DNA of 64,000 bases from Methanobrevibacter sp. (GTDB lineage: Archaea > Methanobacteriota > Methanobacteria > Methanobacteriales > Methanobacteriaceae), in the NCBI RefSeq assembly GCF_030539555.1, contig NZ_JAUNXX010000004.1, positions 1-64,000 of the forward strand, given 5' to 3'. The notes beneath the pieces were generated by a model that was not told the DNA's origin, ran no database searches, and saw only the letters and a program-made list of their open reading frames with translations. Position numbers and translations under genes: made by a program. The first letter of the stretch is position 1, and each line of letters opens with the position of its first letter. Positions 35,933-51,088 of this stretch are shown here, one piece after another.

Positions 35933-36943
35933 ATGGATAAAAATGAGATAACAAGGACTTTATTGTATGTTGGTGAAGAAGGTGAAGTGTCTATGGATGT
36001 TATCATAGACCATGAAAGAGAGACTATGTGGGCAACTCAGAAAACAATGGCTGAAGTGTTTAATGTAAAAGTTCCTGCAATAAGTAAACATTTGAAAAAT
36101 ATTTTTGAAGAGGGGGAATTAATTAAAAATTCAGTTGTTTCCAAAATGGAAATAACTGCATCAGATGGTAAAAAATATAATACAAATTTCTACAATCTCG
36201 ATGCAATTATCTCTGTAGGTTACAGAGTAAACTCCAAAAACGCAACACATTTCAGAATTTGGGCCACTGGTGTATTAAGGGAATTTATCATTAAAGGTTT
36301 TGTATTGGATGATGAGCTGTTGAAAAATGGTTCAAGATTTGGAAAAGACTATTTCCATGATTTGCTTGAAAGAATTCGTGAGATAAGAGTTTCTGAAAGG
36401 CGGTTCTATGAAAAACTAACGGATTTGTATGCAACTAGTCATGATTATAACAAAAATGCTGAAATTACTAGAGAATTCTATGCAAAAGTTCAAAACAAAC
36501 TTCATTATGCAATATCTGGAATGACTGCTCCTGAAATAATCAGAAATCGTGCAAGTAGTGATAAGGAGAATATGGGATTAACCTCCTGGAAGCATTCTCC
36601 TGAAGGTAAAATACAGTTGAGTGATACTAAAATTGCTAAAAATTATTTGACTGAAGAGGAATTGGCTGAACTCAACAAACTTGTAGAATTGTATCTCAAT
36701 TTTGCCGAACTTCAAGCAACACGGGAAATCCCTATGAGTATGAAAGATTGGGCAAATCAATTGGACAAATTCCTGGATTTTGTTGGTTATCAGATATTGG
36801 AGGGAAAAGGAGAAATTAGTCGCAAAGAAATCAATGATTTTGTCAAAGGGGAATTTGACAAGTTCAGACCAATCCAGGATAAATTATACAAGTCTGATTA
36901 TAATGAATTTGAAGAAAAAACTAGAAAGTTATTAAATAAGTAA
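35933..36943 (+). CDS. RhuM-family protein
   Basis: A 336-aa protein of the virulence RhuM type. The N-terminal half contains WATQKTMAEVFNVKVPAISKH, a helix-turn-helix-like segment, and FYNLDAIISVGYRVNSKNATHFRIWA, the family hallmark. The C-terminal half is helical. The biochemical role is not known; such genes are scattered in mobile and defence-rich regions. A good AGAGGT site precedes ATG 35933. No restriction or toxin partner is adjacent. Confidence 0.78.
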   Translation: MDKNEITRTLLYVGEEGEVSMDVIIDHERETMWATQKTMAEVFNVKVPAISKHLKNIFEEGELIKNSVVSKMEITASDGKKYNTNFYNLDAIISVGYRVNSKNATHFRIWATGVLREFIIKGFVLDDELLKNGSRFGKDYFHDLLERIREIRVSERRFYEKLTDLYATSHDYNKNAEITREFYAKVQNKLHYAISGMTAPEIIRNRASSDKENMGLTSWKHSPEGKIQLSDTKIAKNYLTEEELAELNKLVELYLNFAELQATREIPMSMKDWANQLDKFLDFVGYQILEGKGEISRKEINDFVKGEFDKFRPIQDKLYKSDYNEFEEKTRKLLNK

Positions 36944-36975: not shown

Positions 36976-38340
36976 ATGCAAAGTAATGATAATTCAAATA
37001 GTGTAGACATAATGCTTGGAAATCCAAAAAAGGCATTGATAAGCATGTCTATACCTTTAATTATCTCATTACTCATTTCCAGCTTATACAATCTTATCGA
37101 TGCGGCTTGGGTGTCCGGTTTGGGAGCCGATGCACTTGCTGGTGTTGGGTTTTTCACACCAATATTTATGATTTTAATAGGTTTCGGCAACGGCCTTGGA
37201 GCAGGTTCTGCTTTTGCAATATCAAAATATATAGGCGAAAACAATAAACTGAAGGCGGATAATGCATCCATTCATTCTATTTTAATTGATATTATCGCAT
37301 CAGTTATAATAACTGTTTCTCTTTTTGTTTTGCTTGTTCCAATATTGAATGCAATGGGTGTAGATCAAACCATTTCTTATGCAACAGATTATGGAAATAT
37401 AGTTGTTTTGGGCTCAATATTCATAATCCTTTCAAATGCTCTTTATGGAATTTACAGAGGTGAAGGAGATTCGACCAGGCCGATGTATGCTATGATTGCA
37501 TCAGCTATTTTGAACATGGTTCTTGATCCTATTTTTATTTATACGTTAAATATGGGAGTTAAAGGAGCTGCCATTGCAACATTAATATCAGCAATTTCTG
37601 TAATTCTGATTTTGCTTTATTGGTTTTATATTAAAAATGACACTTACTTGAAGCCGGTTTTATCTAATTTCAAATATAAAAAGGAAATCGGGTTTGATAT
37701 TATTAAAGTTGGTCTTCCCGCAAGTATCCAGCTTTTAAACAATGCGTTTTTTGCAGCAGTCTTTTCTGCACTTCTTGCGTTTTTATCATCAACAGATTCT
37801 GTAGCTGTTTATTCGACAGGATGGAGGATTGTAATTATAGGAACAACTCCAATTTTAGCTATCGGAACAGCCCTAATCAGTGTCATTGCAGCAAATTACG
37901 GTGCCAAAAACTATAAAAACATTCAAATCGCCCACAGGCATGCAATGAAAATCTCAATAATATTTGCTTTTGCGGTTGCAATCCTGACCAATGTGTTTGC
38001 CGGAGATATCGCTTCAATATTCGCTTCCAGTGGAAGCAGTGTAAGGATAGCTTCTGAACTTACAAGTTTTTTGGCTTGGATTGTAATATATTATCCTACA
38101 ATGGCTGTTGGTGTAGCTTCAACTTATGTTTTCCAGGGTCTCGGTAAAGGAATAACTGCAATGTTTCAGACAATCATGAGGGAAACAGGATTTACAATAT
38201 TCTTTGCTGTATTACTAGGTGTTGTTTTGAATTATGGTGTATGGGGAGCATGGATGGGTATTGTTTTAGGTGAAATAATTTCAAATAATATTACTTTAAT
38301 CTGGGCTGATTGGGAGATTAAAAAGCTTTTGAAAAAATAG
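36976..38340 (+). CDS. MATE-family efflux transporter
   Basis: A 454-aa protein with about 12 membrane helices in two similar halves, typical of cation-coupled MATE exporters. The N-terminus (LIDAAWVSGLGADALAGVGF) shows the family pattern. A TATA box at about 36945-36953 puts the transcript start at the ATG, and no ribosome binding site is seen, so the message is probably leaderless. A short AATAAG/CTTATT hairpin after the stop separates it from the convergent ABC operon. Confidence 0.88.
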   Translation: MQSNDNSNSVDIMLGNPKKALISMSIPLIISLLISSLYNLIDAAWVSGLGADALAGVGFFTPIFMILIGFGNGLGAGSAFAISKYIGENNKLKADNASIHSILIDIIASVIITVSLFVLLVPILNAMGVDQTISYATDYGNIVVLGSIFIILSNALYGIYRGEGDSTRPMYAMIASAILNMVLDPIFIYTLNMGVKGAAIATLISAISVILILLYWFYIKNDTYLKPVLSNFKYKKEIGFDIIKVGLPASIQLLNNAFFAAVFSALLAFLSSTDSVAVYSTGWRIVIIGTTPILAIGTALISVIAANYGAKNYKNIQIAHRHAMKISIIFAFAVAILTNVFAGDIASIFASSGSSVRIASELTSFLAWIVIYYPTMAVGVASTYVFQGLGKGITAMFQTIMRETGFTIFFAVLLGVVLNYGVWGAWMGIVLGEIISNNITLIWADWEIKKLLKK

Positions 38341-38367: not shown

Positions 38368-38985
38368 TTAATCAACTTTGTTTATGTCTTTTAGATAGAT
38401 TACATCGTCACATATTGTATTTACCAAATCCATGTCGTGACTTACAAGCAGAAATCCCATATTTCTTTCTTTAACTATCTTTAATACGGAATCCAGGATT
38501 TGTACTTGTGTTATTGCATCCAGCATTGTTGTCATTTCATCAGCAATTAGGAATTTTGTCATAGGATTTAGTGACCTCAAAACGGAGAATCTTTGCAGTT
38601 CTCCTCCAGAAAGTTCCTGCGGAAATCTGGTAAGCCAAGATTTCTGAATACCGAAGTCCTCAAGAAGGTCATCTGGAACTTCCCATGATTCGCCTAATAC
38701 ACTGTCCATTTTCCACTTTGGATTCATAACTTTTTCAGGATGTTGGTAAATTAACTGTACTGGGCAAAACCCTTTTTTTGGGAGTTCTTCACCGTTTAAA
38801 GTAACTCTACCATCAAATTTTTGAACATGGCCTGAAAGAATTTTACACAATGTTGACTTCCCGCTTCCACTATCTCCAACTAAACCGGTTACTTTATTAT
38901 TGTCCAGATATATGTCTATATCTTTTAATATGTAGTTTTTAGCTGAAGGGTATTTAAATGAAATATTCGAACCAATAAGTTCCAT
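38368..38985 (-). CDS. Nickel/peptide ABC transporter ATPase 2 (operon A)
   Basis: A 205-aa ATPase of the DppF/NikE type, shorter than usual because the C-terminal oligopeptide domain is missing. Walker A is GDSGSGKST (37-45), the signature LSGGELQRF is intact, and Walker B is FLIADEMTTMLD. The frame opens at 39003, but the ATG at 38985 comes one base after the partner's stop codon and follows AAGGTG. It is the last gene of operon A and convergent with MATE. A close paralogue lies at 43715-44329. Confidence 0.88.
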   Translation of the reverse strand: MELIGSNISFKYPSAKNYILKDIDIYLDNNKVTGLVGDSGSGKSTLCKILSGHVQKFDGRVTLNGEELPKKGFCPVQLIYQHPEKVMNPKWKMDSVLGESWEVPDDLLEDFGIQKSWLTRFPQELSGGELQRFSVLRSLNPMTKFLIADEMTTMLDAITQVQILDSVLKIVKERNMGFLLVSHDMDLVNTICDDVIYLKDINKVD

Positions 38986-38986
38986 C

Positions 38987-39934
38987 TTATGCACCTTCCT
39001 CATATTTAAAACATCTGACTTTTTTATTTCCTATGCCGATAAGTTGAGGCCGTTCACTCTTACATCTGTCGAATGCCATTTCGCATCTGTCGTAGTATGG
39101 GCATCCGTTTGGTATTTCGCCGTGTAGTGGTTGGTGGCCTTTGGTCAGTTCGAATCCGTTTGCAGGCAGTGCTTTGTATAGTGCTTTGGTGTATGGGTGG
39201 AGCAGGTTTTCTCCATCTCCTGTGAAGTCTTCTTTCAGTGCTATTTCGATTACGTATCCTGAGTAGAATATTCCTATTCTGTCTGCTACTTCCAGTGCGG
39301 CGTGTATGTCGTGTGTGATTAGGAGTACTCCGATTCCGTCTTTTTTCATGTGTTTGAAGTGATTTAATGTTTCCTGTACTGTTTTTTCGTCCAGTCCTGG
39401 TGTTGGCTCATCTGCTACGACGAGTTTTGGATCAGACAGTAGTGCTGTTGAGACGAGTACTCTTCTTGCCATTCCTCTGGATAGCTGGAAGGGGTACATG
39501 CCATCCACTTCGGGACCTAAATTATAATGCTCAAAGATTTCCCTTTGCTGTTGCTTTTTTTGTTTTTTCTCTTCTTCACTTTCGGTGTGTCCGATTGCCT
39601 GGTCGGATATTTTCATCAGAGGATCAAGGAAGTTCACGGATTGGGGCACAAGTACTATGTCCTTTCCCCTTATCGCCTCTTTATCTGCTTGTGACAATTC
39701 CTTTCCTTTGTATTTTATTTTTCCGTTTAGGTTTGCGTTTTCAGGCAGTATTCCGAATATTGCATGTGCAAGAAGGCTTTTTCCAGATCCGCTTGAGCCC
39801 AGTACTGCCAGTATTTCTCCTTCGGATATATCTAAAGTTAAATCGGTGATAACTTTTAAATCTCTTTGATTTAAACCTTTAGTATATTGAATGAATGAAA
39901 TCGATACGTTTTCAACATCTAATAATTTCTCCAT
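38987..39934 (-). CDS. Nickel/peptide ABC transporter ATPase 1 (operon A), LSRG variant
   Basis: A 315-aa ATPase of the DppD/NikD type with Walker A GSSGSGKS, Walker B LVVADEPTPGLD and the C-terminal cysteine motif (CPYYDRCEMAFDRC) of this subfamily. The signature motif reads LSRGM, with Arg at position 153, where the near-identical paralogue in operon B has LSGGM. The change is one base (GGA to AGA). The signature glycines contact ATP, so activity may be reduced. ATG follows GGTGAT. Confidence 0.88.
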   Translation of the reverse strand: MEKLLDVENVSISFIQYTKGLNQRDLKVITDLTLDISEGEILAVLGSSGSGKSLLAHAIFGILPENANLNGKIKYKGKELSQADKEAIRGKDIVLVPQSVNFLDPLMKISDQAIGHTESEEEKKQKKQQQREIFEHYNLGPEVDGMYPFQLSRGMARRVLVSTALLSDPKLVVADEPTPGLDEKTVQETLNHFKHMKKDGIGVLLITHDIHAALEVADRIGIFYSGYVIEIALKEDFTGDGENLLHPYTKALYKALPANGFELTKGHQPLHGEIPNGCPYYDRCEMAFDRCKSERPQLIGIGNKKVRCFKYEEGA

Positions 39935-39942
39935 GTTATCAC

Positions 39943-40806
39943 CTATTCATTTGCACTTGTCGGATCAAGTATTTTCTTGATATTTTCTCCGGCAATATCA
40001 AATAACAATACAATTATCAGTAATGCCAAACCAGGGAATAATGCCAGCCACCAGTCACCTGTTGCAAGATATTTCATTGATTCTGATAAAATAATACCGA
40101 TTGCAGGCTCGTGTGGTGATAAACCGAATCCCAGGAATGTCACGCTTGCTTCGTGCATGATTGCATGAGGGAAAATTAAAATTGTTCCAACAATTATCTG
40201 AGTAATCACTAAAGGAATTATATGCTTTCTTGCAATCCAAATCTTTGATTTTCCAAATCTTTCGGATAATTTAACAAAATCGGATGTTTGGATTTGTTTG
40301 ATTTCCGCTCTTAAAACTCTTGCAAGTGATGTCCAGTGTGTTACTGCAACACCCATTGATACACCAAAAGCTCCACCACCCAAAGCAATGGAAATTAAAA
40401 TAATCAGCAGGATGTGGGGAATTGACAGGAATAAATCAATTAACCATGAAACTATGCCATCAAGGAACTTATTTGTACTTCCGATTAATGCCATGGCAAT
40501 AGCGATTAAACTACTTAAAATTGATGCTGCAGCACCAATCTGCACACTTAATCCCAATCCTTTCAACGTACGTGTAAACATGTCTCTGCCCATCCAGTCA
40601 GTACCGAATAAATGTTCGAAGGATGGGGGTTGATTCATTGCTTTAAAATTTGTGGTAATGCTTCCTGAATCAATCAGTAAACTTGAAATCACAATAACAA
40701 CCAATATAAACACGGTTATTCCGATGGTTAACAGAGTTTTAGTTCTTAAATTCATGTTTGCAATTGGATTATAAATACTGCCTTTTTCTGAGCTAACCAT
40801 CTTCAT
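39943..40806 (-). CDS. Nickel/peptide ABC transporter permease C (operon A)
   Basis: A 287-aa DppC/NikC-type permease. About six membrane helices are visible, with the N-terminal cytoplasmic lead, the family segment FGTDWMGRDMFTR and the coupling loop (EIKQIQTSDFVKLSERFGKS). It overlaps the upstream permease gene by 14 bases. ATG 40800 is an alternative start with better spacing from GGAGAG. Confidence 0.88.
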   Translation of the reverse strand: MKMVSSEKGSIYNPIANMNLRTKTLLTIGITVFILVVIVISSLLIDSGSITTNFKAMNQPPSFEHLFGTDWMGRDMFTRTLKGLGLSVQIGAAASILSSLIAIAMALIGSTNKFLDGIVSWLIDLFLSIPHILLIILISIALGGGAFGVSMGVAVTHWTSLARVLRAEIKQIQTSDFVKLSERFGKSKIWIARKHIIPLVITQIIVGTILIFPHAIMHEASVTFLGFGLSPHEPAIGIILSESMKYLATGDWWLALFPGLALLIIVLLFDIAGENIKKILDPTSANE

Positions 40807-41782
40807 TACTCTCCTTAATTCTTGGGTCTACGAAATTATAAATCAAATCAGCAATTAAATTACCACAGTATACAAATATTGCACTGAAAATTACAATTCC
40901 TAAGAGTAACGGCACATCACTTTTAAGACCTGCTGAAACCGCTGCCTGTCCTATTCCAGGATAAGTGAATATCTGTTCCACAAGTACTGTACCTCCGAAT
41001 AATTCTGAAAATCCTAAAAACTGTAATGTAATTGCTGGAAGTAAAACATTTCTTATCCCATGTCTTTTAATTAAATTCCAACCACTTTCACCTCTTGCTT
41101 TTGCAAATAAGAAATAATCACTGTTCATTTCTTCAATCAATTTATCACGGGTGTATAATGCAATTGATGCTACTCCAACAATACTTAATGTGACCATTGG
41201 AAGTATTAAACGATTTAACCAATCCCAGAAGGTAACGCTGTCACTTAATCTTCCAATTGGAACTCCTAAACCTGTCGGGAACCATCCAAGATATACACTG
41301 AATATCATTAAAATGATTAATGCAATCCAAAAGACCGGTGCTGATTGTAAGATGTAACAATAAACTTTAATTGCTTTGTCAACAATGGTGTCTTTTTTGA
41401 ATCCGGCTACAACTCCTAATAAAAATCCTAAAATTCCTGACAGTACCCATGAGGATAACATCAGTGCCAATGACGCCATAAATCTTTCTTTAATAACGTC
41501 GATTACAGGTATTCTGAATATAAGTGATGTTCCCAAATCACCTTTGGCGATGTTTCCTAACCAGTTGAGTATTTTTGTGGTTATCGGTTCATGGACACCC
41601 CAATATGCTTCTAATTTGGCTATCTGGTCTTGGGAAATAATAACATTGCTTATATATGTTTTTACAGGATTTATTGGAGACATGTCTATGAGTAAAAAGC
41701 TTAACAGGATGACAAAAATAAGCAAGATTGCAAATCTGACAATCTTTTTTCCTAAAAATTTCAATAATCTTTCATAGTTCAT
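40793..41782 (-). CDS. Nickel/peptide ABC transporter permease B (operon A)
   Basis: A 329-aa DppB/NikB-type permease with six helices. It carries the conserved segment GDLGTSLIFRIPVIDVI after the first helix and the EAA-like coupling loop (YFLFAKARGESGWNLIKRHG). It partners permease C, with the two genes overlapping. It starts 74 bases after the binding-protein gene of the same operon. Confidence 0.88.
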   Translation of the reverse strand: MNYERLLKFLGKKIVRFAILLIFVILLSFLLIDMSPINPVKTYISNVIISQDQIAKLEAYWGVHEPITTKILNWLGNIAKGDLGTSLIFRIPVIDVIKERFMASLALMLSSWVLSGILGFLLGVVAGFKKDTIVDKAIKVYCYILQSAPVFWIALIILMIFSVYLGWFPTGLGVPIGRLSDSVTFWDWLNRLILPMVTLSIVGVASIALYTRDKLIEEMNSDYFLFAKARGESGWNLIKRHGIRNVLLPAITLQFLGFSELFGGTVLVEQIFTYPGIGQAAVSAGLKSDVPLLLGIVIFSAIFVYCGNLIADLIYNFVDPRIKESNEDG

Positions 41783-41855
41783 CTATAAAACTCCTATAAA
41801 AAGGGAAAAAGAGGTGAGTTAAATTATATGAAATTTAACTCATTAGTTCAACTGT

Positions 41856-43475
41856 CTATTTTTCTATTGAGGAAACACGGGTCCAATCGTATATGTTACC
41901 GAATATATCTCCTCCGTGTGGTTGAATGAGTGCTGTATCCGTGGATATGTTTAAACTTTCGTCAACAAAGTATCCATATTTGATTTCTCCAGCCCATAAC
42001 CATGCAGCATCACCTTTAGGTGAAACACCTGTGCTTCCATCCCAAGAAGCAGCAGACCATTCAGCAAATGAGGAATTTCTGTCCATTCCCATAGCTTTGT
42101 CCATGTGAGCATCTACAACACTGTTGTTGTAGTGTCCTGGGTTTCCGATTCCGTCAGTGAAACTGCTGCTGTAATATTCACCTTTCATTGTTGAAGGGTC
42201 GGTTGAACCGTATCCCCATACAACAAGATCACTGTATTCATGTTTGTAAATTTCATCCCATTCTGCACCGGTTGCATTGATTTCTATTCCAAACTCTTTT
42301 GCTTGTTCACTAATCATTACAGCAATAGCTTGTCTTTCAGGTGCTGATGCGGAGTAGTATACATTAAGTGATGCTTTGGTACCGTTTTTCTCTACGATTC
42401 CATCGCCGTCAGTATCTTTCCATCCGGATGCATTTAAAAGTTCTTTAGCTTTTGTAATGTTACCGTCTTCGATTGCAGATTCGTTATTTGCCCATGGTAA
42501 TGAGTGAGATACTCCATCGTAGTTAGGATATCCGAATCCGTTTAATGCTCCTTCAGCAATAGCGGTTCTGTTAATACCATAGTTTAAAGCTTGTCTTACT
42601 GCTTTGTCTGCGGTTACATTGTTACCTACAGGTGCGTCATCTTTCATTTCACCTGTGTTGTTGGTCATTGGGAAGGAAATACCTCTTACGTCAATGGTGT
42701 CTAGTAATTCCATTGTGTATCCGTCAACAGTTTCATTTGCGTATGCTAATGGTACTGCTGCAACATCCACTTCTTTGTTTTTAGCAGCATTGAATGCAGC
42801 TTCATTTTGTGCAAATAATATGGTTAATTTATTGAATTCAGGTTGTTTTCCATAGTAATCTGGGTTTTTCTCTAAGATTACTTGTTGGCCTTTGTCCCAT
42901 TGTACGAATTTGTATGGTCCAGATCCGATTGGGTTGGATCCATAAGTTTCGTTGTTGTATGAATCAGATGGCACAATACCTAAGTATGCTAATTTATCAA
43001 CAAATGATGAATCGGATTGGTTTAATTCAAATTTGACTGTAGTCTTATCTACTGCAGTAGCTTTAATGAAATTGCTGAAATCCAATTCGCTTGTTCCATT
43101 GTTTTTAGCTTCGTTATATGTGAATGCAACGTCTTCAGCGTCTAAAGTGGTGTTATCTGTAAATTTAACTCCATCTCTGATTTTTACAGTATATTCTGTA
43201 AAGTTGCTGTTTGCTGTCCAATTTGTTGCCAAATCGTTTCTATAATTCATGTCGGGGGTCATTTTCAATAATGTTGATTGAATTAATGGTTCTGCTAAGT
43301 AGTTCCACCCGAGTATAGGATCGAAACCTGATTCAGGTTCTCCTCCATGACTGTAAGCGGCAACTACAAGTTCGTCGTCAGCTCTTTCAGGACTGGATTG
43401 TCCCATAAAGATTGCTCCGCCTATAATTGCGATTATTATTACGGCGATAATTCCAATAATGTATTTTTGATCCAT
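41856..43475 (-). CDS. Nickel/peptide ABC transporter binding protein (operon A)
   Basis: A 539-aa SBP_bac_5-type binding protein anchored by one N-terminal helix (YIIGIIAVIIIAIIGGAIFM). It shows the family phrases DGVKFTDNTTLDAEDVAFTYNEA and NPIGSGPYKFVQWDKGQQVILEKNPDYYG. A DTDGDGIVE segment resembles a calcium-binding loop. Ligand is uncertain: nickel chelate or peptide. ATG follows GGAG. The promoter region contains three copies of the AAGTATTACTT palindrome. Confidence 0.88.
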   Translation of the reverse strand: MDQKYIIGIIAVIIIAIIGGAIFMGQSSPERADDELVVAAYSHGGEPESGFDPILGWNYLAEPLIQSTLLKMTPDMNYRNDLATNWTANSNFTEYTVKIRDGVKFTDNTTLDAEDVAFTYNEAKNNGTSELDFSNFIKATAVDKTTVKFELNQSDSSFVDKLAYLGIVPSDSYNNETYGSNPIGSGPYKFVQWDKGQQVILEKNPDYYGKQPEFNKLTILFAQNEAAFNAAKNKEVDVAAVPLAYANETVDGYTMELLDTIDVRGISFPMTNNTGEMKDDAPVGNNVTADKAVRQALNYGINRTAIAEGALNGFGYPNYDGVSHSLPWANNESAIEDGNITKAKELLNASGWKDTDGDGIVEKNGTKASLNVYYSASAPERQAIAVMISEQAKEFGIEINATGAEWDEIYKHEYSDLVVWGYGSTDPSTMKGEYYSSSFTDGIGNPGHYNNSVVDAHMDKAMGMDRNSSFAEWSAASWDGSTGVSPKGDAAWLWAGEIKYGYFVDESLNISTDTALIQPHGGDIFGNIYDWTRVSSIEK

Positions 43476-43527: not shown

Positions 43528-43638
43528 AAGTATTATTTTAATTAATAACAATTGATTAAATATTATTATTTAAGTATATTTAAATATTTCTAAATTAAGT
43601 ATTACTTTAATTAGAATTTTATAAAAAAAGTATTAATT
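43528..43638. promoter_or_regulatory. AAGTATTACTT operator cluster, operon A promoter
   Basis: The odd-length palindrome AAGTA-T-TACTT occurs exactly at 43597-43607, with variants AAGTATTATTT at 43528-43538 and AAGTATTAATT at 43628-43638. The last two are 31 bases apart, start to start. All lie in the 240-base gap upstream of the binding-protein gene, the first one beside a TATA-like TTTTATAAAC on the minus strand. Confidence 0.6.
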
Positions 43639-43714: not shown

Positions 43715-44329
43715 TTAGGCACCATTAATATCTTTTAAATATATTCTGTCGTCACAGATTGTATCAACTAAATCCATATCGTGACTTACAAGCAGAAATC
43801 CCATGTTTCTTTTTTTAACTATCTTCAAAACGGAATCCAGGATTTGTGCTTGTGTTATTGCATCAAGCATTGTTGTCATTTCATCTGCAATCAGGAATTT
43901 TGTATTCGGATTCAGTGATCTTACAACTGAAAATCTTTGCAGTTCTCCACCGGATAATTCTTGGGGAAATCGTGTTAACCATGATTTTTGAATTCCGAAT
44001 TCGGATAATGCCTCATCACTAACGTCCCATGATTCTTCTAAAACTTGTTTCATTTTCCATTTTGGATTCATAACTTTTTCGGGATGTTGATAAATCAGTT
44101 GAACAGGCTTAAATCCATTTTTAGGAAGAGGATGCTCATCTAATGTAACGCTACCTTCGTATTTAGTCACGTATCCTGATAAAATTTTACATAATGTTGA
44201 CTTTCCGCTACCGCTGTCTCCAATCAGTCCAATGATTTTCTTATTGTCTAATTCAAGGTTAATGTCTTTTAATAAGTAATTTTTAGCAGATGGGTATTTA
44301 AATGAAATATTCTCAGCCTTAAGTTTCAT
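43715..44329 (-). CDS. Nickel/peptide ABC transporter ATPase 2 (set B)
   Basis: A 204-aa short DppF/NikE-type ATPase, close paralogue of that at 38368. Walker A is GDSGSGKST, the signature is LSGGELQRF, and Walker B is FLIADEMTTMLD. ATG at 44329 lies one base after the partner's stop. With the upstream ATPase it forms a two-gene unit transcribed away from the GNAT gene at 45.4 kb. The permeases and binding protein of set B are on the other strand at 47-50.5 kb. Confidence 0.88.
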   Translation of the reverse strand: MKLKAENISFKYPSAKNYLLKDINLELDNKKIIGLIGDSGSGKSTLCKILSGYVTKYEGSVTLDEHPLPKNGFKPVQLIYQHPEKVMNPKWKMKQVLEESWDVSDEALSEFGIQKSWLTRFPQELSGGELQRFSVVRSLNPNTKFLIADEMTTMLDAITQAQILDSVLKIVKKRNMGFLLVSHDMDLVDTICDDRIYLKDINGA

Positions 44330-44330
44330 A

Positions 44331-45278
44331 TTATGCACCTTCCTCATATTTAAAGCATCTAATTTTTTTATCGCCTAAATCTATTAATTCTGGTCTTTCT
44401 TCCCTACATCTATCGAATCTCATTTCGCACCTGTCATAATAAGGACATCCTTTTTGTATTTCTCCGTGTAGTGGTTGGTGTCCTTTGATTATTTCGAATC
44501 CATTTGCGGGCAGTGCCTTGTATAGTGCTTTGGTGTATGGGTGGAGCAGGTTTTCTCCCTCACCACTGAAATCTTCTGTTTTGGCAATTTCGATTACGTA
44601 TCCTGAGTAGAATATTCCGATTCTGTCTGCTACTTCCAGTGCGGCGTGTATGTCGTGTGTGATTAGGAGTACTCCGATTCCGTCTTCTTTCATGTGTTTA
44701 AAGTGGTTTAATGTTTCTTGTACTGTTTTTTCGTCGAGTCCTGGTGTTGGTTCGTCTGCTACGACGAGTTTTGGGTCGGATAGTAGTGCTGTTGATACGA
44801 GTACTCTTCTTGCCATTCCTCCTGATAGCTGGAATGGATACATGTTGTCGACATCGGGACCAAGATTGTAGTGTTCAAAGATTTCTCTTTGCTTTAGTTT
44901 CTTTTGTTTTTTCTCTTCGTCTGTTTCTGTGTGTCCGATTGCCTGGTCGGATATTTTCATTAGGGGGTCAAGGAAGTTTACTGATTGTGGTACGAGTACT
45001 ATGTCTTTTCCTCTGATTTCTTCTTTGTCTTTTTGTGTGAGTTCTTTTCCTTTGTATTTTATTTTTCCGTTTAGGTTTGCATTTTCTGGAAGTATTCCGA
45101 ATATTGCATGTGCTAGAAGGCTTTTTCCAGATCCACTTGAACCCAAAACTGCCAATATCTCTCCTTCGGATATGTCCAATGTCAAATCGGTGATGACTTT
45201 TAAATCTCTTTGATTTAGTCCTTTTGTGTATTGTATGAATGAAATTGAAACATTTTCAACATCTAATAATTTTTCCAT
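44331..45278 (-). CDS. Nickel/peptide ABC transporter ATPase 1 (set B)
   Basis: A 315-aa DppD/NikD-type ATPase, nearly identical to the one at 38987 over most of its length, but with the normal signature LSGGM. Walker A is GSSGSGKS, Walker B LVVADEPTPGLD, and the C-terminal cysteine motif is CPYYDRCEMRFDRC. The frame opens at 45299, but AAAGGTGATTTA precedes ATG 45278. The paired palindromes at 45373 and 45405 lie between it and the divergent GNAT gene. Confidence 0.9.
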   Translation of the reverse strand: MEKLLDVENVSISFIQYTKGLNQRDLKVITDLTLDISEGEILAVLGSSGSGKSLLAHAIFGILPENANLNGKIKYKGKELTQKDKEEIRGKDIVLVPQSVNFLDPLMKISDQAIGHTETDEEKKQKKLKQREIFEHYNLGPDVDNMYPFQLSGGMARRVLVSTALLSDPKLVVADEPTPGLDEKTVQETLNHFKHMKEDGIGVLLITHDIHAALEVADRIGIFYSGYVIEIAKTEDFSGEGENLLHPYTKALYKALPANGFEIIKGHQPLHGEIQKGCPYYDRCEMRFDRCREERPELIDLGDKKIRCFKYEEGA

Positions 45279-45372
45279 TAAATCACCTTTATCTTTCAAA
45301 GATTTTCAAATGATAAATTTTATATACTAATTTGTACTTTATCAATATTAAAGTTATTCAAAATTTATAAAA

Positions 45373-45415
45373 AAGTATTACTTTTTACATAATAATGTTA
45401 TTAAATGTAATACTT
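45373..45415. promoter_or_regulatory. Paired AAGTATTACTT operators, divergent promoter
   Basis: AAGTATTACTT at 45373-45383 and ATGTAATACTT at 45405-45415 are 32 bases apart start to start, about three helical turns. They lie in the gap between the ATPase unit (minus) and GNAT 1 (plus), so a single regulator could control both. The second site ends five bases before the first possible GNAT start codon. Confidence 0.65.
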
Positions 45416-45432: not shown

Positions 45433-45996
45433 ATGAAGGTTATTATTAGGAAATTGGTTGATGATTCTAAGCAAATTCAAGATGTCCAAAAATTTTTATT
45501 TAAAATGATTAAACTTGAATTTGGTTATGATTATGTTCCAGAATGGCATCAGGACATAATAAAAATGGATGAATATTATATTAATCCTAACAGAAATAAT
45601 TTTTTTATAGCCTATAGTGAAGAAACTGGTGAAATATTGGCAACAATTGGTATTCGTGCTTATGATAAAGATTTTTTAGAATTTATGCATTTATACTCAA
45701 AAGATACTACCTCCAGTATTTGGAGATTGTTTGTTGATAGAAGATGTCGCCGTTGTGGCTTGGCCTCCAAAATGTTTAGTATTGCCGAGAATTTTGCAAA
45801 TAACATGGGCTATGACGATATTTACTTGCATACTCATAAAACATTGCCTGGGGCTATTCAATTTTGGAAAAAGATGGGCTTTGTTGTTGCTTTAGATGCA
45901 GATGATGAACTTGAAACTGTTCATATGGATAAAAAAATAGTCGGATTGGATATTAACCCTTTAGCTAATGATTTTTCTTATGCTGTAAAATTATGA
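45433..45996 (+). CDS. GNAT acetyltransferase 1
   Basis: A 187-aa GNAT-fold N-acetyltransferase. The acetyl-CoA loop is RRCRRCGLASKM, preceded by the strand SSIWRLFVD. A conserved N-terminal segment (EYYINPNRNNFFIAY) is shared with GNAT 2 at 50.6 kb. An added C-terminal tail of about 17 residues overlaps the end of the convergent QueG-like gene by six bases. The frame opens at 45421; ATG 45433 follows GGGG. The substrate is unknown; linkage to the transporter suggests the transported compound or a chelator. Confidence 0.8.
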   Translation: MKVIIRKLVDDSKQIQDVQKFLFKMIKLEFGYDYVPEWHQDIIKMDEYYINPNRNNFFIAYSEETGEILATIGIRAYDKDFLEFMHLYSKDTTSSIWRLFVDRRCRRCGLASKMFSIAENFANNMGYDDIYLHTHKTLPGAIQFWKKMGFVVALDADDELETVHMDKKIVGLDINPLANDFSYAVKL

Positions 45997-46683
45997 TTTT
46001 TTGATATATCTCTGTGTGTGTGGGCAAGCAAAGATGCATTTTCCACATACGGTATCTGGTTTTCCCAAGTTTTCCTCACTTACTTTCAGTGCATATTTTT
46101 CACATTTTTTATCATCGTAAAATTCGTTTCTCTTAAGTTTATAATTCCAGTTTAATCCGCTTACCGCTCCTCCGGGGCAAGCATTCATACATTCCATGCA
46201 TTTTCCACATTTGGACTTAAGTATAGGTATTCCAATATCTAATGGTGCATCTGTTAGGACTGAGGACAGTCTAAGTGCTGATCCGTAATTTTTTGTTGTA
46301 AATAATGCAGATTTTCCAATCCATCCTAGTCCGGATCGTGTAGCTATTGTTTTGTGTGGCAGTTTGAATGAATTAAATTCTCCAAAATCAGTTCCCAATC
46401 TTTTTTTTGTTTGAGCATATGCATTATATCCTTTATCTATTAAAAATTCCTCACATTTCATTCCAAGATAATCTAATCTTGAATTTAAGCTAATCAATTC
46501 TTTAAGATATTCGGGAGTTGGTGCGTTTTCCATGTTTCTTATGATTTCTTTCGGGTAAGTTATGTAAAAGACCACTCCTGTGTTTAGTGGGGGTTTTGGT
46601 GTAAAGTTTGTGATGTCTGCATAACCTACTTCGCAGGCACCATTTTTTATTAAAAATTTTTTTAATTCAATAGACAGAGCCAT
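45991..46683 (-). CDS. QueG-like double [4Fe-4S] protein
   Basis: A 230-aa protein related to the Fe-S and adjoining part of epoxyqueuosine reductase. Two cluster motifs are present, CGKCMECMNACPGGAVSG and CGKCIFACPHTQRY, with another Cys (KCEKY) between them. The N-terminal half holds ATRSGLGWIGKSALF, the QueG-type cofactor segment. It is shorter than QueG, which has about 300-380 residues. A copy of the AAGTATTACTT palindrome (46723) lies in its promoter, so it belongs to the transporter group. The function is unknown. Confidence 0.75.
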   Translation of the reverse strand: MALSIELKKFLIKNGACEVGYADITNFTPKPPLNTGVVFYITYPKEIIRNMENAPTPEYLKELISLNSRLDYLGMKCEEFLIDKGYNAYAQTKKRLGTDFGEFNSFKLPHKTIATRSGLGWIGKSALFTTKNYGSALRLSSVLTDAPLDIGIPILKSKCGKCMECMNACPGGAVSGLNWNYKLKRNEFYDDKKCEKYALKVSEENLGKPDTVCGKCIFACPHTQRYIKKS

Positions 46684-47022
46684 GGGCGGATATTTGCAGA
46701 TTATATTATTTAAATTTAAAGTTAGTATTACTTTTCATATAATTTTTATTTTTTCAGGGATTATTTTGTACTTAGTTTTTATTTATTAATGTATAAATCC
46801 GATATGTGATGTTTTTTTAACTGTTCAGTTTTATTTCTTTTTATTAAAAAAATTTTATAATTAAATTGAAGTTTAAAAGTAATAAATATGTTTTTATACT
46901 TGGAGGTGTATATTATATATAATATTAAAATATGTAAAAAATGTATTACTAATTAAATATTTTTTTGATTAAAAGTAATACTTTTGTTTTAATATTATTT
47001 TAATTGTGTTATGGTGAAAATT
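46684..47022. promoter_or_regulatory. Divergent regulatory region with four palindrome copies
   Basis: This gap separates the QueG-like gene (minus) from binding protein B (plus). Palindrome copies lie at 46723-46733 (TAGTATTACTT), 46877-46887 (weak, AAGTAATAAAT), 46941-46951 (ATGTATTACTA) and 46973-46983 (AAGTAATACTT). The last two are 32 bases apart. TATATTATATATAATATT (about 46909-46926) is the likely TATA region of the plus-strand operon, which puts its start site on the 46941 copy. A GGAGGTG string at 46902 has no start codon after it. Confidence 0.6.
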
Positions 47023-48645
47023 ATGGATAAAAAAACAATGATGATTATAGGTGCGGTTGCAGCGATCCTTGTTATTGTTGTCGCAGCTTTTGCTTTAATG
47101 GGCGGATCTTCTGATGATGACCCAACTCATTTGACTGTGGCGGCACACAGTAATTTAAAAGAACCGGAATCTGGTTTTAATCCAATTACTGGGTGGGGAT
47201 GTGGACACCAAAACTATAATCCTTTAGTACAAAGTTGTTTATTTAAAACAGATAAAAATGGAAGTATCGTTCCTGATTTAGCTACTGATTATTCAATTAG
47301 TAGTGACGGTAAAACATGGACAGTAAATGTGAGAGATGACGTTAAATTCTCAGACAATTCAACATTCGATGCTGAAGATGTAGCATTCACATTTAACACA
47401 GGAAAAGATACAGAATCCGAAATAGATTTAACAAATATTGAAAATGTAACCGCTAAAAACAGCACTTGTGTTGAATTTAACTTAGTTGAACCAAGATCAA
47501 CATTTATTTATGACTTAAGATATGTTGGTATTTTGCCTTCTGATTCCTATGACAACAATACTTACGGTGAAAACCCAATTGGAACAGGACCATATGTATT
47601 GGATCACTGGGATAAAGGTCAACAAGCTATCTTCAAAGTAAATGACAACTATTATGGTGATAAACCATACTTTACTCAAATTACCTTATTATTCCCTGAA
47701 GAATCTACTTGGTTAGAACTCGCTAAATCTGGTCAAGTTGATGTTGTGCCTGTTGCAACTTCTGCATTAAACCAAACTGTAGACGGATACCAATTCTATC
47801 AAGTATCTGCTGGAAGAGCACAAGGTATATCATTCCCTTACCTCAATGACACTGGTCTTACAAGTCCGGCTGGTTCCAAAATAGGTAATAATGTAACTGC
47901 AGATCATGCAATTAGGGAAGCATTGAATGTAGGTGTTAACCGTCAAAAAATGTGTGACGATATATTCTCCGGACATGCAACTCCAGAATATACTAGTGTA
48001 GATACAAGAGACTATGCAAACCCTGATGCCAAAGTAAATGATTCAAATGTTGATGAAGCAAAGAAAATCTTGAACGATGGCGGATGGAACGACACTGATG
48101 GTGATGGAATCGTTGAAAAAGATGGTTTAAAAGCATCATTTGATTTATATTATCCACCTGATTATCTTGACAGACAATCTTTAGCAACTGTATTTGCTGA
48201 ACAAGCAAAAGAAATTGGAATTGAAGTAAATCTTAAAGGTGCTGACTGGGATACAATCTATGCAAACATGTATAGTTCCCCTGCAGTAATGCAACAAACT
48301 TCTCCAGACCCATATAAATCTATCTATCAACAATACTACAGTAAAGAACCAGATGATTTCTATATGAACCCAGGTTTGTATAACAATTCTGCTTCTGACG
48401 CTTTAATGAAACAAGCTATGCATACTACTGATTTAACCCAAGCTAATACTCTATGGGCTCAATCTGCACTCGTTAACGGTGGAGGTTGGGGTCCTGCCGG
48501 TGATGCTCCATTTGTATGGCTTGTTAACTATGACTATAACTACTTCATTAAAGATGGTATTGATATAGGTGAACAACCAGACGGTTTAGGAAATGATGTT
48601 TTAATAAATGTGGTTGATTGGACTAGAACCAATTCAACAGCATAA
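47023..48645 (+). CDS. Nickel/peptide ABC transporter binding protein (set B)
   Basis: A 540-aa SBP_bac_5-type protein with an N-terminal anchor helix (MMIIGAVAAILVIVVAAFAL). It shares with the operon A protein the phrases DDVKFSDNSTFDAEDVAFTF, NPIGTGPYVLDHWDKGQQ and the DTDGDGIVEKDG loop, but the rest has diverged, so the ligands may differ. The frame opens at 47011; GGTGA precedes ATG 47023. It heads the operon binding protein-permease B-permease C-GNAT 2. Confidence 0.88.
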   Translation: MDKKTMMIIGAVAAILVIVVAAFALMGGSSDDDPTHLTVAAHSNLKEPESGFNPITGWGCGHQNYNPLVQSCLFKTDKNGSIVPDLATDYSISSDGKTWTVNVRDDVKFSDNSTFDAEDVAFTFNTGKDTESEIDLTNIENVTAKNSTCVEFNLVEPRSTFIYDLRYVGILPSDSYDNNTYGENPIGTGPYVLDHWDKGQQAIFKVNDNYYGDKPYFTQITLLFPEESTWLELAKSGQVDVVPVATSALNQTVDGYQFYQVSAGRAQGISFPYLNDTGLTSPAGSKIGNNVTADHAIREALNVGVNRQKMCDDIFSGHATPEYTSVDTRDYANPDAKVNDSNVDEAKKILNDGGWNDTDGDGIVEKDGLKASFDLYYPPDYLDRQSLATVFAEQAKEIGIEVNLKGADWDTIYANMYSSPAVMQQTSPDPYKSIYQQYYSKEPDDFYMNPGLYNNSASDALMKQAMHTTDLTQANTLWAQSALVNGGGWGPAGDAPFVWLVNYDYNYFIKDGIDIGEQPDGLGNDVLINVVDWTRTNSTA

Positions 48646-48697
48646 ACATCTTTTTCCTTTTTTATTTTTTTAAAATTTTTCAAGGGGGTTTATTTCA

Positions 48698-49687
48698 TTG
48701 AATAAACAAAAATTAGCAAAATATTTTGGTTTTAAATTAGTACGTTTCATAATTTTGATTATTGCAGTTGCAATTTTTAGTTTTGTGTTATTAGATTTAT
48801 CCCCTATTGACCCAGTTAATGCTTATTTAAAAGGTGCTGCGGTATCTGAAGCACAAAGGCAAATTTTAGAACAGTATTTTGGTACTAATGTTCCTTTGCC
48901 AACAAAAATATATCATTGGATTTTAAATTTGATTCAAGGAAATCTTGGAACTTCATTAATATATCGTGCCCCTGTCGTTGATGTTATTTACCAAAAGTTC
49001 TCTGCTTCTGTAGTTTTAATGGCATTGTCATGGATATTCAGTGGAGTCATTGGTTTTGCATTGGGAATACTTGCAGGTAAAAATAAGGGATCATGGATTG
49101 ATAAAGTAGTTAAAGTTTATTGTTATGCAATTCAATCTGCTCCATCTTTTTGGGTTGGAATGCTTATTTTAATGGTATTTTCAGTTTATTTAGGATGGTT
49201 CCCAATTGGATTTGGTGTGCCTATTGGTGTTAAAAGTACTGATGCAACATTTATGGAGTGGGCGACAAGACTTGTTCTTCCTACATTGACACTGAGTTTA
49301 GTTGGTCTGGCTCCGATTGCAATGTATACCCGTAATGAATTAGTGCAAGTTTTATCATCAGATTATGTATTGTTCGCAAAATCCCGTGGTGAAAAAGGTT
49401 GGGATTTAGTTAAAAATCATGGAATAAGAAATATTTTACTTCCTGCAGTCACATTACAATTTTTATCATTTTCGGAATTGTTTGGTGGTGCAGTCATGGT
49501 AGAACAAGTGTTTTCTTATCCTGGTATAGGGCAGACGGCTGTTGCTGCAGGTCTTCAAAATGATGTTCCATTATTTTTAGGAATTGTGGTAATTAGTGCA
49601 ATTTTCGTATTTGTCGGTAACCTGCTTGCGGATATCTCTTATTATCTGATTGATCCAAGAATCAAGGAGAGTGAGTTCAATGATTAG
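48698..49687 (+). CDS. Nickel/peptide ABC transporter permease B (set B)
   Basis: A 329-aa DppB/NikB-type permease with six helices, the segment GNLGTSLIYRAPVVDVI and the coupling loop YVLFAKSRGEKGWDLVKNHG. It resembles the operon A permease throughout. The start is TTG at 48698, placed after AAGGGGG, and no in-frame ATG fits better. The next permease gene starts inside its last codons. Confidence 0.88.
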   Translation: MNKQKLAKYFGFKLVRFIILIIAVAIFSFVLLDLSPIDPVNAYLKGAAVSEAQRQILEQYFGTNVPLPTKIYHWILNLIQGNLGTSLIYRAPVVDVIYQKFSASVVLMALSWIFSGVIGFALGILAGKNKGSWIDKVVKVYCYAIQSAPSFWVGMLILMVFSVYLGWFPIGFGVPIGVKSTDATFMEWATRLVLPTLTLSLVGLAPIAMYTRNELVQVLSSDYVLFAKSRGEKGWDLVKNHGIRNILLPAVTLQFLSFSELFGGAVMVEQVFSYPGIGQTAVAAGLQNDVPLFLGIVVISAIFVFVGNLLADISYYLIDPRIKESEFND

Positions 49688-50534
49688 AAAAAAAACTGAT
49701 GATAAAAAGCAGTGGTTTTTATACTCGGCCAATCTTAGGACAAAAACTTTAGTAATCATTGTTCTTTCCTCTTTGGTTATAATAAGCATTTTTGTAAGCG
49801 GTTATTTCATAAGAGACATTCCATCAAGCTTTGTTAATGCTAATCAGATGCCTTCCTTAGAACATCTTTTCGGAACAGATTGGATGGGGAGAGACATGTT
49901 TCAGAGAACCATTGCAGGACTTGGATTAAGTTTAATGGTAGGTTTTATTGCATCTGCTGTAAGTACATGTATTTCCATTATTTTCGGACTATTTTCAAGT
50001 TTCAATAAGTTTGCTGATGAATTTGTTGCGGGTATTATTGATTTATTCGGTTCAATTCCTCATATCCTTTTAATTATTATAGTATCCATTATGTTTGGTG
50101 GTGGAGTATATGGTGTTATTATGGGTGTTGGTTTAACTCATTGGACGCCTCTTGCGAGGGTTTTAAGGTCTGAGGTAAAGGAAATCAGGACTAAGGAATA
50201 TATTCATTTAGCTCATAATCTAGGTAAATCTAAGATGTGGATTGCTCTTAAACATATTTTGCCTTTAATTGTATCTCAAATTATTGTGGGAGTAATATTG
50301 ATGTTTCCTCATGCCATCATGCACGAAGCAGCGATAACATTTTTAGGATTCGGTTTGCCTCCTCACGAACCGGCTATTGGAGTGATTTTATCAGAGTCAA
50401 TGCACTATTTATCTTCAGGATATTGGTGGTTAGCATTCTATCCGGGTATATCATTATTGATAGTTGTATTGCTGTTCGATTTAATCGGCGAAAATGTTGA
50501 AAAATTACTCAATCCCGAAACAGCTCAAGAATAA
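49680..50534 (+). CDS. Nickel/peptide ABC transporter permease C (set B)
   Basis: A 284-aa DppC/NikC-type permease with six helices, FGTDWMGRDMFQR near the N-terminus and the coupling loop EVKEIRTKEYIHLAHNLGKS. ATG 49680 overlaps the permease B gene by eight bases and follows GGAGAGTGAG, so I prefer it to the longer frame from 49650. The ATPases of this transporter are probably the divergent pair at 43.7-45.3 kb. Confidence 0.88.
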   Translation: MIRKKTDDKKQWFLYSANLRTKTLVIIVLSSLVIISIFVSGYFIRDIPSSFVNANQMPSLEHLFGTDWMGRDMFQRTIAGLGLSLMVGFIASAVSTCISIIFGLFSSFNKFADEFVAGIIDLFGSIPHILLIIIVSIMFGGGVYGVIMGVGLTHWTPLARVLRSEVKEIRTKEYIHLAHNLGKSKMWIALKHILPLIVSQIIVGVILMFPHAIMHEAAITFLGFGLPPHEPAIGVILSESMHYLSSGYWWLAFYPGISLLIVVLLFDLIGENVEKLLNPETAQE

Positions 50535-50584
50535 GATAAATTATCTTATTTTTTTCATTTTTTTTTTAAGATTGGAGGTATAAT

Positions 50585-51088
50585 ATGAACATTCAAATTA
50601 GGGAAATTAAAAATAATTATAATGAAATCTGTGCGGTTAAATCTTTCTTATATGACCAAATTAGAAAAGAGTATGGTATAGGTCCTACTCCGGAATTCCA
50701 TTATGATATTGAGGGAATAGAAGAGTATTACATTTCTCCTAAACGAAATAATTTTTATGTCACATTTTGCGGTGAAAAAATTGTAGCAACTGCAGCCGTT
50801 AGAGCTTATGATAAGGATTATGAGTTTTTTAGAGATTCATATTCTCAGGAAAACACTGCGAGTATCTGGAGACTAATGGTGGACAAGGATTACAGGAGAC
50901 ATGGTCTTGCACGTAGGTTAGTTTATGAAATGGAAGAATTTGCTAAAAAAGAAGGATATGAAAAAATGTATTTGCATACTCATAGGTATCTTGATGCGGC
51001 GCTTCCTTTTTGGAAATCCCTTGGATATGAAGTAACTGTCGAAGAAGATGATTATGATGAAACAAGCCATATGATAAAAAAGTTATGA
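50585..51088 (+). CDS. GNAT acetyltransferase 2
   Basis: A 167-aa GNAT-fold acetyltransferase, paralogue of GNAT 1. The acetyl-CoA loop is YRRHGLARRL, with TASIWRLMVD before it and MYLHTHRYLDAALPFWKSLGY after it. ATG follows a strong GGAGGT site. It is the last gene of the set B transporter operon. Since both copies of the transporter have a GNAT beside or near them, acetylation is likely part of the same pathway; the substrate is unknown. Confidence 0.82.
   Translation: MNIQIREIKNNYNEICAVKSFLYDQIRKEYGIGPTPEFHYDIEGIEEYYISPKRNNFYVTFCGEKIVATAAVRAYDKDYEFFRDSYSQENTASIWRLMVDKDYRRHGLARRLVYEMEEFAKKEGYEKMYLHTHRYLDAALPFWKSLGYEVTVEEDDYDETSHMIKKL

Follow-up and report, generated by a model that had tools for sequence, protein, structure and literature searches.

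What would two paralogous acetyltransferases be doing beside a duplicated Opp/Nik-type importer in a methanogen? Methanogens have a high nickel requirement, for coenzyme F430 and for [NiFe]-hydrogenases. A 2011 genome review nevertheless called the nickel importer of Methanothermobacter unidentified (PMC3087415). The locus considered here lies in a 64,000-nt stretch of Methanobrevibacter sp. DNA (the whole of which is meant by “the window”), and we hold, with moderate confidence, that it is a nickel-starvation cluster, in which a YntA-type importer brings in a nickel-chelate and the acetyltransferases (GNATs) N-acetylate the chelator inside the cell. The locus is strongly tied to nickel and to a chelator; beyond this, we infer that the importer carries the chelate, that the GNATs acetylate the chelator, that this releases the nickel and that NikR is the regulator.

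The two enzymes, GNAT1 (45433–45996, + strand; PF00583, Acetyltransf_1, 54.7 bits against a cut-off of 20.7) and its paralog GNAT2 (50585–51088, + strand; PF00583, 66.9 bits against 20.7), are 44% identical, and no further member of their family was found in the 2.08-Mb genome. Profile scores place both in the GNAT superfamily, with acetyl-CoA-dependent transfer predicted. The AlphaFold model of GNAT1 (pLDDT 89) has a GNAT fold. The comparison of GNAT structures and pockets proposed in the preliminary description was run as a fold search with GNAT1, which returned 744 matches at E ≤ 0.001 and gave no substrate signal, those among the matches listed being generic GNATs, all of them acetyltransferases and of mixed substrates.

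The importer is present twice. Importer A consists of five minus-strand genes (38368–43475), namely the substrate-binding protein SBP_A (41856–43475; PF00496, 246 bits; 44% identical to SBP_B) and two permeases plus two ATPases (38368–41782; ORFs 38368–39003, 38987–39934, 39943–40806 and 40793–41782), taken as copies of the B set by order and sequence. Importer B is split: on the plus strand, SBP_B (47011–48645), a NikB/OppB-like permease 1 (48698–49687; PF00528, best NCBIfam model of Opp2B/NikB type, under cut-off) and a NikC/OppC-like permease 2 (49650–50534; PF00528, best NCBIfam model of Opp2C/NikC type, under cut-off) lead into GNAT2, which closes the run, with gaps of 50–52 bp or an overlap. 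Both ATPases lie on the minus strand (43715–45299)—ATPase 1 at 44331–45299 (ABC_tran plus oligo_HPY) and the NikD/NikE-like ATPase 2 at 43715–44347 (ABC_tran)—and diverge from GNAT1 across about 120–130 bp that hold an exact palindrome. GNAT1 and a 4Fe-4S double-cluster protein (FeS, 45991–46683, − strand; PF13484, 40.4 bits) stand between the two halves. The latter resembles just the ferredoxin half of QueG and of reductive dehalogenases and scores under the cut-offs of their models (TIGR00276, 55.8 against 200; TIGR02486, 50.5 against 160); its structure prediction, from 21 closely related rows, reached a pLDDT of 49. A MATE efflux gene (36976–38340, + strand; TIGR00797, 214.9 bits) is a recurrent neighbour, also in the loci of relatives, and its product is, speculatively, a chelator exporter. 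By eye, the ORF next to this MATE gene (35933–36943) looks RhuM-like; a similar pair is present in one relative (L182).

The metal is suggested by the binding protein. The closest solved relative of SBP_B is YntA of Yersinia pestis (structures 3ry3 and 4ofl; E 7e-90 and 1.7e-89, with almost full-length alignment), followed at a distance by E. coli NikA (E 6e-36) and 5yh5 (E 2e-28), which we take to be S. aureus CntA. Judged by sequence, SBP_B is far nearer to nickel-binding YntA than to NikA, peptide binders or any other solved structure. It is not classed as NikA, since it misses the cut-off of the equivalog model (TIGR02294, 174.7 bits against 393), and the CntA model is likewise not reached (NF047575, 136.6 bits against 800). 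The accompanying two permeases and two ATPases are as in NikABCDE/YntABCDE importers, and nickel uptake is predicted.

Neighbourhoods in relatives indicate what the GNATs go with. The order of two reversed ATPases, forward GNAT1, reversed FeS and forward SBP was seen in 30 sampled loci across Methanobrevibacter, so that the arrangement is not chance, and the GNAT pair, duplicated Opp/Nik-type importer and double-cluster Fe-S gene recognised in the preliminary description are confirmed. The Methanobrevibacter block usually continues with permease, permease, GNAT2 and TruA; in a sister genus (L100, L103, L104 and L111) GNAT2 sits between permeases and ATPases, all in one direction. The preliminary description would have been undermined had the GNATs stood beside unrelated genes in most relatives. 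Instead, importer genes or a nicotianamine synthase (NAS) gene lie within 3 kb of 88 out of 98 GNAT1-type genes (importer genes, 69/98; NAS, 35/98; neither partner, 10/98), where neighbours are long ORFs called mechanically and labelled by BLAST against the window proteins, so that single labels may err. The GNAT1 family adjoins NAS, the importer or both throughout Methanobacteriales.

The NAS link emerged from clustering the unlabelled neighbours, in which a protein of ~270 residues lay near GNAT in 23 loci. This protein is the archaeal thermonicotianamine synthase (3fpe, E 1.7e-84) and the commonest non-transporter neighbour of GNAT in relatives. Its Glu81 and Tyr107, named as catalytic residues of NAS (PMC10491745), are invariant in 44 full-length copies. 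In one genome (G148) the NAS beside GNAT is identical to the 3fpe sequence over the aligned span; on the strength of that match, the very NAS of M. thermautotrophicus that was crystallised (MtNAS) has this GNAT family as its divergent neighbour. Gene orders vary: two loci (L070 and L204) read SBP–permease–permease–ATPase–ATPase–GNAT–NAS in one direction, and in another (L116) a reversed GNAT precedes NAS, SBP, two permeases and two ATPases, all forward. A midpoint-rooted tree built from 137 GNATs gathers the GNAT2 sequences into a single clade (100/100). GNATs adjacent to NAS are closest to this clade (97/79), and such adjacency turns up repeatedly over much of the tree, although a midpoint root does not fix which gene context of GNAT is oldest. 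In two loci, a 685-residue protein resembling a metal P-type ATPase directly follows NAS and has the operator described below at its 5' side (L069:6454-8511 and L206:1822-3879).

Of 151 genomes, 101 have a NAS that scores above the family cut-off. Across all 151, GNAT co-occurs with NAS (p = 5e-11) and with SBP (p = 2.5e-11) by Fisher tests that ignore phylogeny and therefore overstate the evidence, kin genomes not being independent and several being incomplete; for this reason the varied gene orders are the better argument. All but one of the GNAT genomes (111/112) hold NAS or a YntA-like SBP, with 16 having NAS without SBP and 19 having SBP without a recognisable NAS. GNAT thus follows the chelator, whether made or imported; that it accompanies only the importer in some genomes, only NAS in others and both elsewhere agrees with an enzyme acting on a chelator of any source.

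The window's own genome has NAS only as a shortened frame on another contig (C131; ~127 NAS residues, then a short unrelated tail), placed, by ORF sizes and order, like the intact NAS of two relatives (L132 and L134). The earlier remark that no chelator synthesis gene is seen consequently holds for the window and fails for the system, given this remnant and the intact NAS in many relatives' clusters. NAS is broken elsewhere too: by a 401-residue ORF inside it in G046 (L060:5560-7800), by shortening of the frame in G043 and by division into two overlapping frames in G143 and G150. The lesions differ among relatives (L060:5560-7800, L120:3757-4535 and L212:8417-9219).

A shared operator connects these genes. 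At ≤1 mismatch, AAAGTAWTACTTT has five sites in the 64 kb, all in the gaps of the cluster, against 0.48 expected. The operator, GTAWTAC-N25-GTAWTAC, is a bipartite palindrome, with an exact copy (GTATTAC-N25-GTAATAC) between ATPase B1 and GNAT1 (45375–45413), another exact copy between FeS and SBP_B (46943–46981) and a copy with one mismatch and an N24 spacer 5' of SBP_A (43599–43636). Among GTAWTAC half-sites, 126 of 222 pairs are exactly 32 bp apart. The paired operator precedes most genes of GNAT1 (81/93), SBP_B (40/49), SBP_A (30/37), FmdE-like proteins (9/10) and, in relatives, FeS (36/46), as well as 22/52 NAS genes, 3/38 MATE genes and 14/894 unlabelled genes, some of these 14 looking nickel- or metal-related. 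Five control palindromes gave 0 at SBP_A, SBP_B, GNAT1, NAS and FeS genes. The operator also lies 5' of cbiM and between hmd and hmdC, and in other genomes 5' of genes for metal P-type ATPase and CobN-like proteins; in M. marburgensis, nickel limitation induces hmd (PMC3087415). Operator evidence is restricted to sites with ≤1 mismatch because a relaxed genome search allowing two showed no excess over the reversed control.

Several further sites stand apart. An exact operator at C30:19602, where a short ORF begins in a toxin-antitoxin-looking region, was set aside as chance. Another exact copy (G000:C41:126699-126737; L155:9700-9738) lies in a ~580-bp gap that holds no recognised gene and adjoins an apparent ortholog, by eye, of the ~91-residue protein neighbouring GNAT in Methanothermobacter; the gap may be what is left of an ancient GNAT/NAS site. 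Proteins that look secreted and belong to no known family, one of them beside a CobN-like gene, also have the operator 5' (L236:4386-7379, L244:4241-8662 and, with two mismatches, L222:97-1437) and are candidates for surface nickel-handling. Unpaired half-sites occur near mcr and nikR; being weaker than the double site, they are given no weight as proof. The window's genome encodes one NikR (238.5 bits against a cut-off of 111), with just one imperfect half-site 5' of its gene, and this protein is the obvious candidate regulator of the operator genes.

We suggest the following mechanism. The YntA-type ABC importer would bring in nickel as a complex with a small amino-acid chelator, likely of nicotianamine type (thermonicotianamine, i.e., glutamate plus two aminocarboxypropyl units), although a nickel-histidine complex is an alternative candidate. 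The chelator would be made by NAS in many relatives and may come from outside in the window's genome, because its NAS is shortened. In the cell, the GNATs would N-acetylate the chelator at a free primary amine. The amine is a strong ligand for nickel and the resulting amide a weak one; hence the most likely outcome would be that the metal is set free and that the emptied chelator does not capture it again. Thermonicotianamine as described (PMC10491745) should carry a terminal primary amine, which would be the acetylation site. A counter-point to release is that GNAT adjoins NAS in Methanothermobacter, which is without a YntA-like SBP; there release alone would not account for the enzyme, unless it controls an internal chelator pool.

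The main rival to release is capping during synthesis, by which GNAT would be a tailoring enzyme in the place that the opine dehydrogenase CntM fills in bacteria: it would cap the NAS product at its terminal primary amine and so yield a mature secreted metallophore, with MATE as exporter and the importer recovering the nickel complex. In its favour, NAS adjoins GNAT in much of the GNAT tree, MATE recurs nearby and the opine dehydrogenase family (PF10100) was found in 0/151 genomes, albeit in a search without a positive control, as control genomes gave no match either. Yet 19 genomes have GNAT and importer without a recognisable NAS, the window's genome keeps both GNATs intact while its NAS is shortened, and the operator is found at MATE in just 3/38 cases; we regard capping as unlikely, if still a serious competitor.

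Acetylation of a protein (NikR, an importer subunit or a nickel enzyme) or of some other general target, with only regulation shared with the nickel genes, is improbable: HP0935 and archaeal Ard1, both protein acetyltransferases, are among the nearest folds, but matches to generic GNAT folds say little about the substrate, and with 111 of 112 GNAT genomes holding NAS or SBP the family tracks chelator genes, which argues against a general target. We give equally little credence to zinc or cobalt as the metal, which would leave the chelator logic unchanged; P-type metal ATPase and CbiM genes carry the operator, and a NikR beside ZnuABC in Methanothermobacter was suggested to be zinc-responsive (PMC3087415), but the YntA-like SBP and the presence of hmd among the operator genes point to nickel. 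A system that imports a toxic peptide or an antibiotic-like compound and detoxifies it, acetylating for self-protection, is very improbable. The importer does belong to the Opp/Nik superfamily and the GNATs weakly match aminoglycoside- and toxin-resistance models, but those scores are far under cut-off. Neither a precursor peptide nor a resistance gene was recognised, the binding protein resembles YntA, and the neighbours and operator-sharing genes are nickel genes. The preliminary description had left open a metallophore or a peptide modification system: the metallophore half is now supported well past what the sequence alone could show, by the YntA-type importer, the NAS beside GNAT in relatives and the operator at a nickel-limitation gene, and the peptide or antibiotic half has no supporting neighbour and just generic GNAT matches. 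That the GNATs acetylate the chelator is the reading we prefer.

Extended to the whole order, acetylation would control a nickel metallophore cycle in which a nicotianamine-type chelator, own or foreign, is imported with nickel by a YntA-type system and N-acetylation frees the metal, lineages whose NAS is lost, this one among them, living by scavenging the chelator; we put this forward only tentatively. In the literature searched we found no tested physiological role for archaeal thermonicotianamine. In this cluster NAS, a YntA-type importer, an acetyltransferase and a candidate nickel operator come together as a single system open to testing. It yields a prediction of which species of the rumen and gut synthesise the chelator and which import it without making it.

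Each part has a known counterpart. Like Yersinia YntABCDE, the importer has a family-5 binding protein, two permeases and two ATPases; here, however, it is archaeal, duplicated and joined to GNAT and an Fe-S protein, and to NAS in relatives. E. coli NikR binds GTATGA-N16-TCATAC. The present operator shares with NikR regulons its positions before cbiM, SBP, NAS and hmd and a single NikR in the genome, but it differs from the E. coli site in the 32-bp distance between its half-sites and in the palindromic form of each of them, and NikR binding here is predicted. With the MtNAS cluster (3fpe) the system shares the NAS family, the catalytic Glu81 and Tyr107 and a divergent GNAT neighbour, whereas Methanothermobacter is without a YntA-like SBP and has FmdE-like and CobN-like surface proteins in the NAS cluster instead. 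The staphylopine and pseudopaline (Cnt) systems likewise combine a NAS-family chelator synthase with an Opp/Nik-type importer, and some relatives of the window's genome have both in one series; the differences are that the window's genome has lost its intact NAS, that SBP_B misses the CntA model cut-off, and that GNAT, rather than an opine dehydrogenase (as far as a PF10100 search without a positive control can tell), stands beside NAS.
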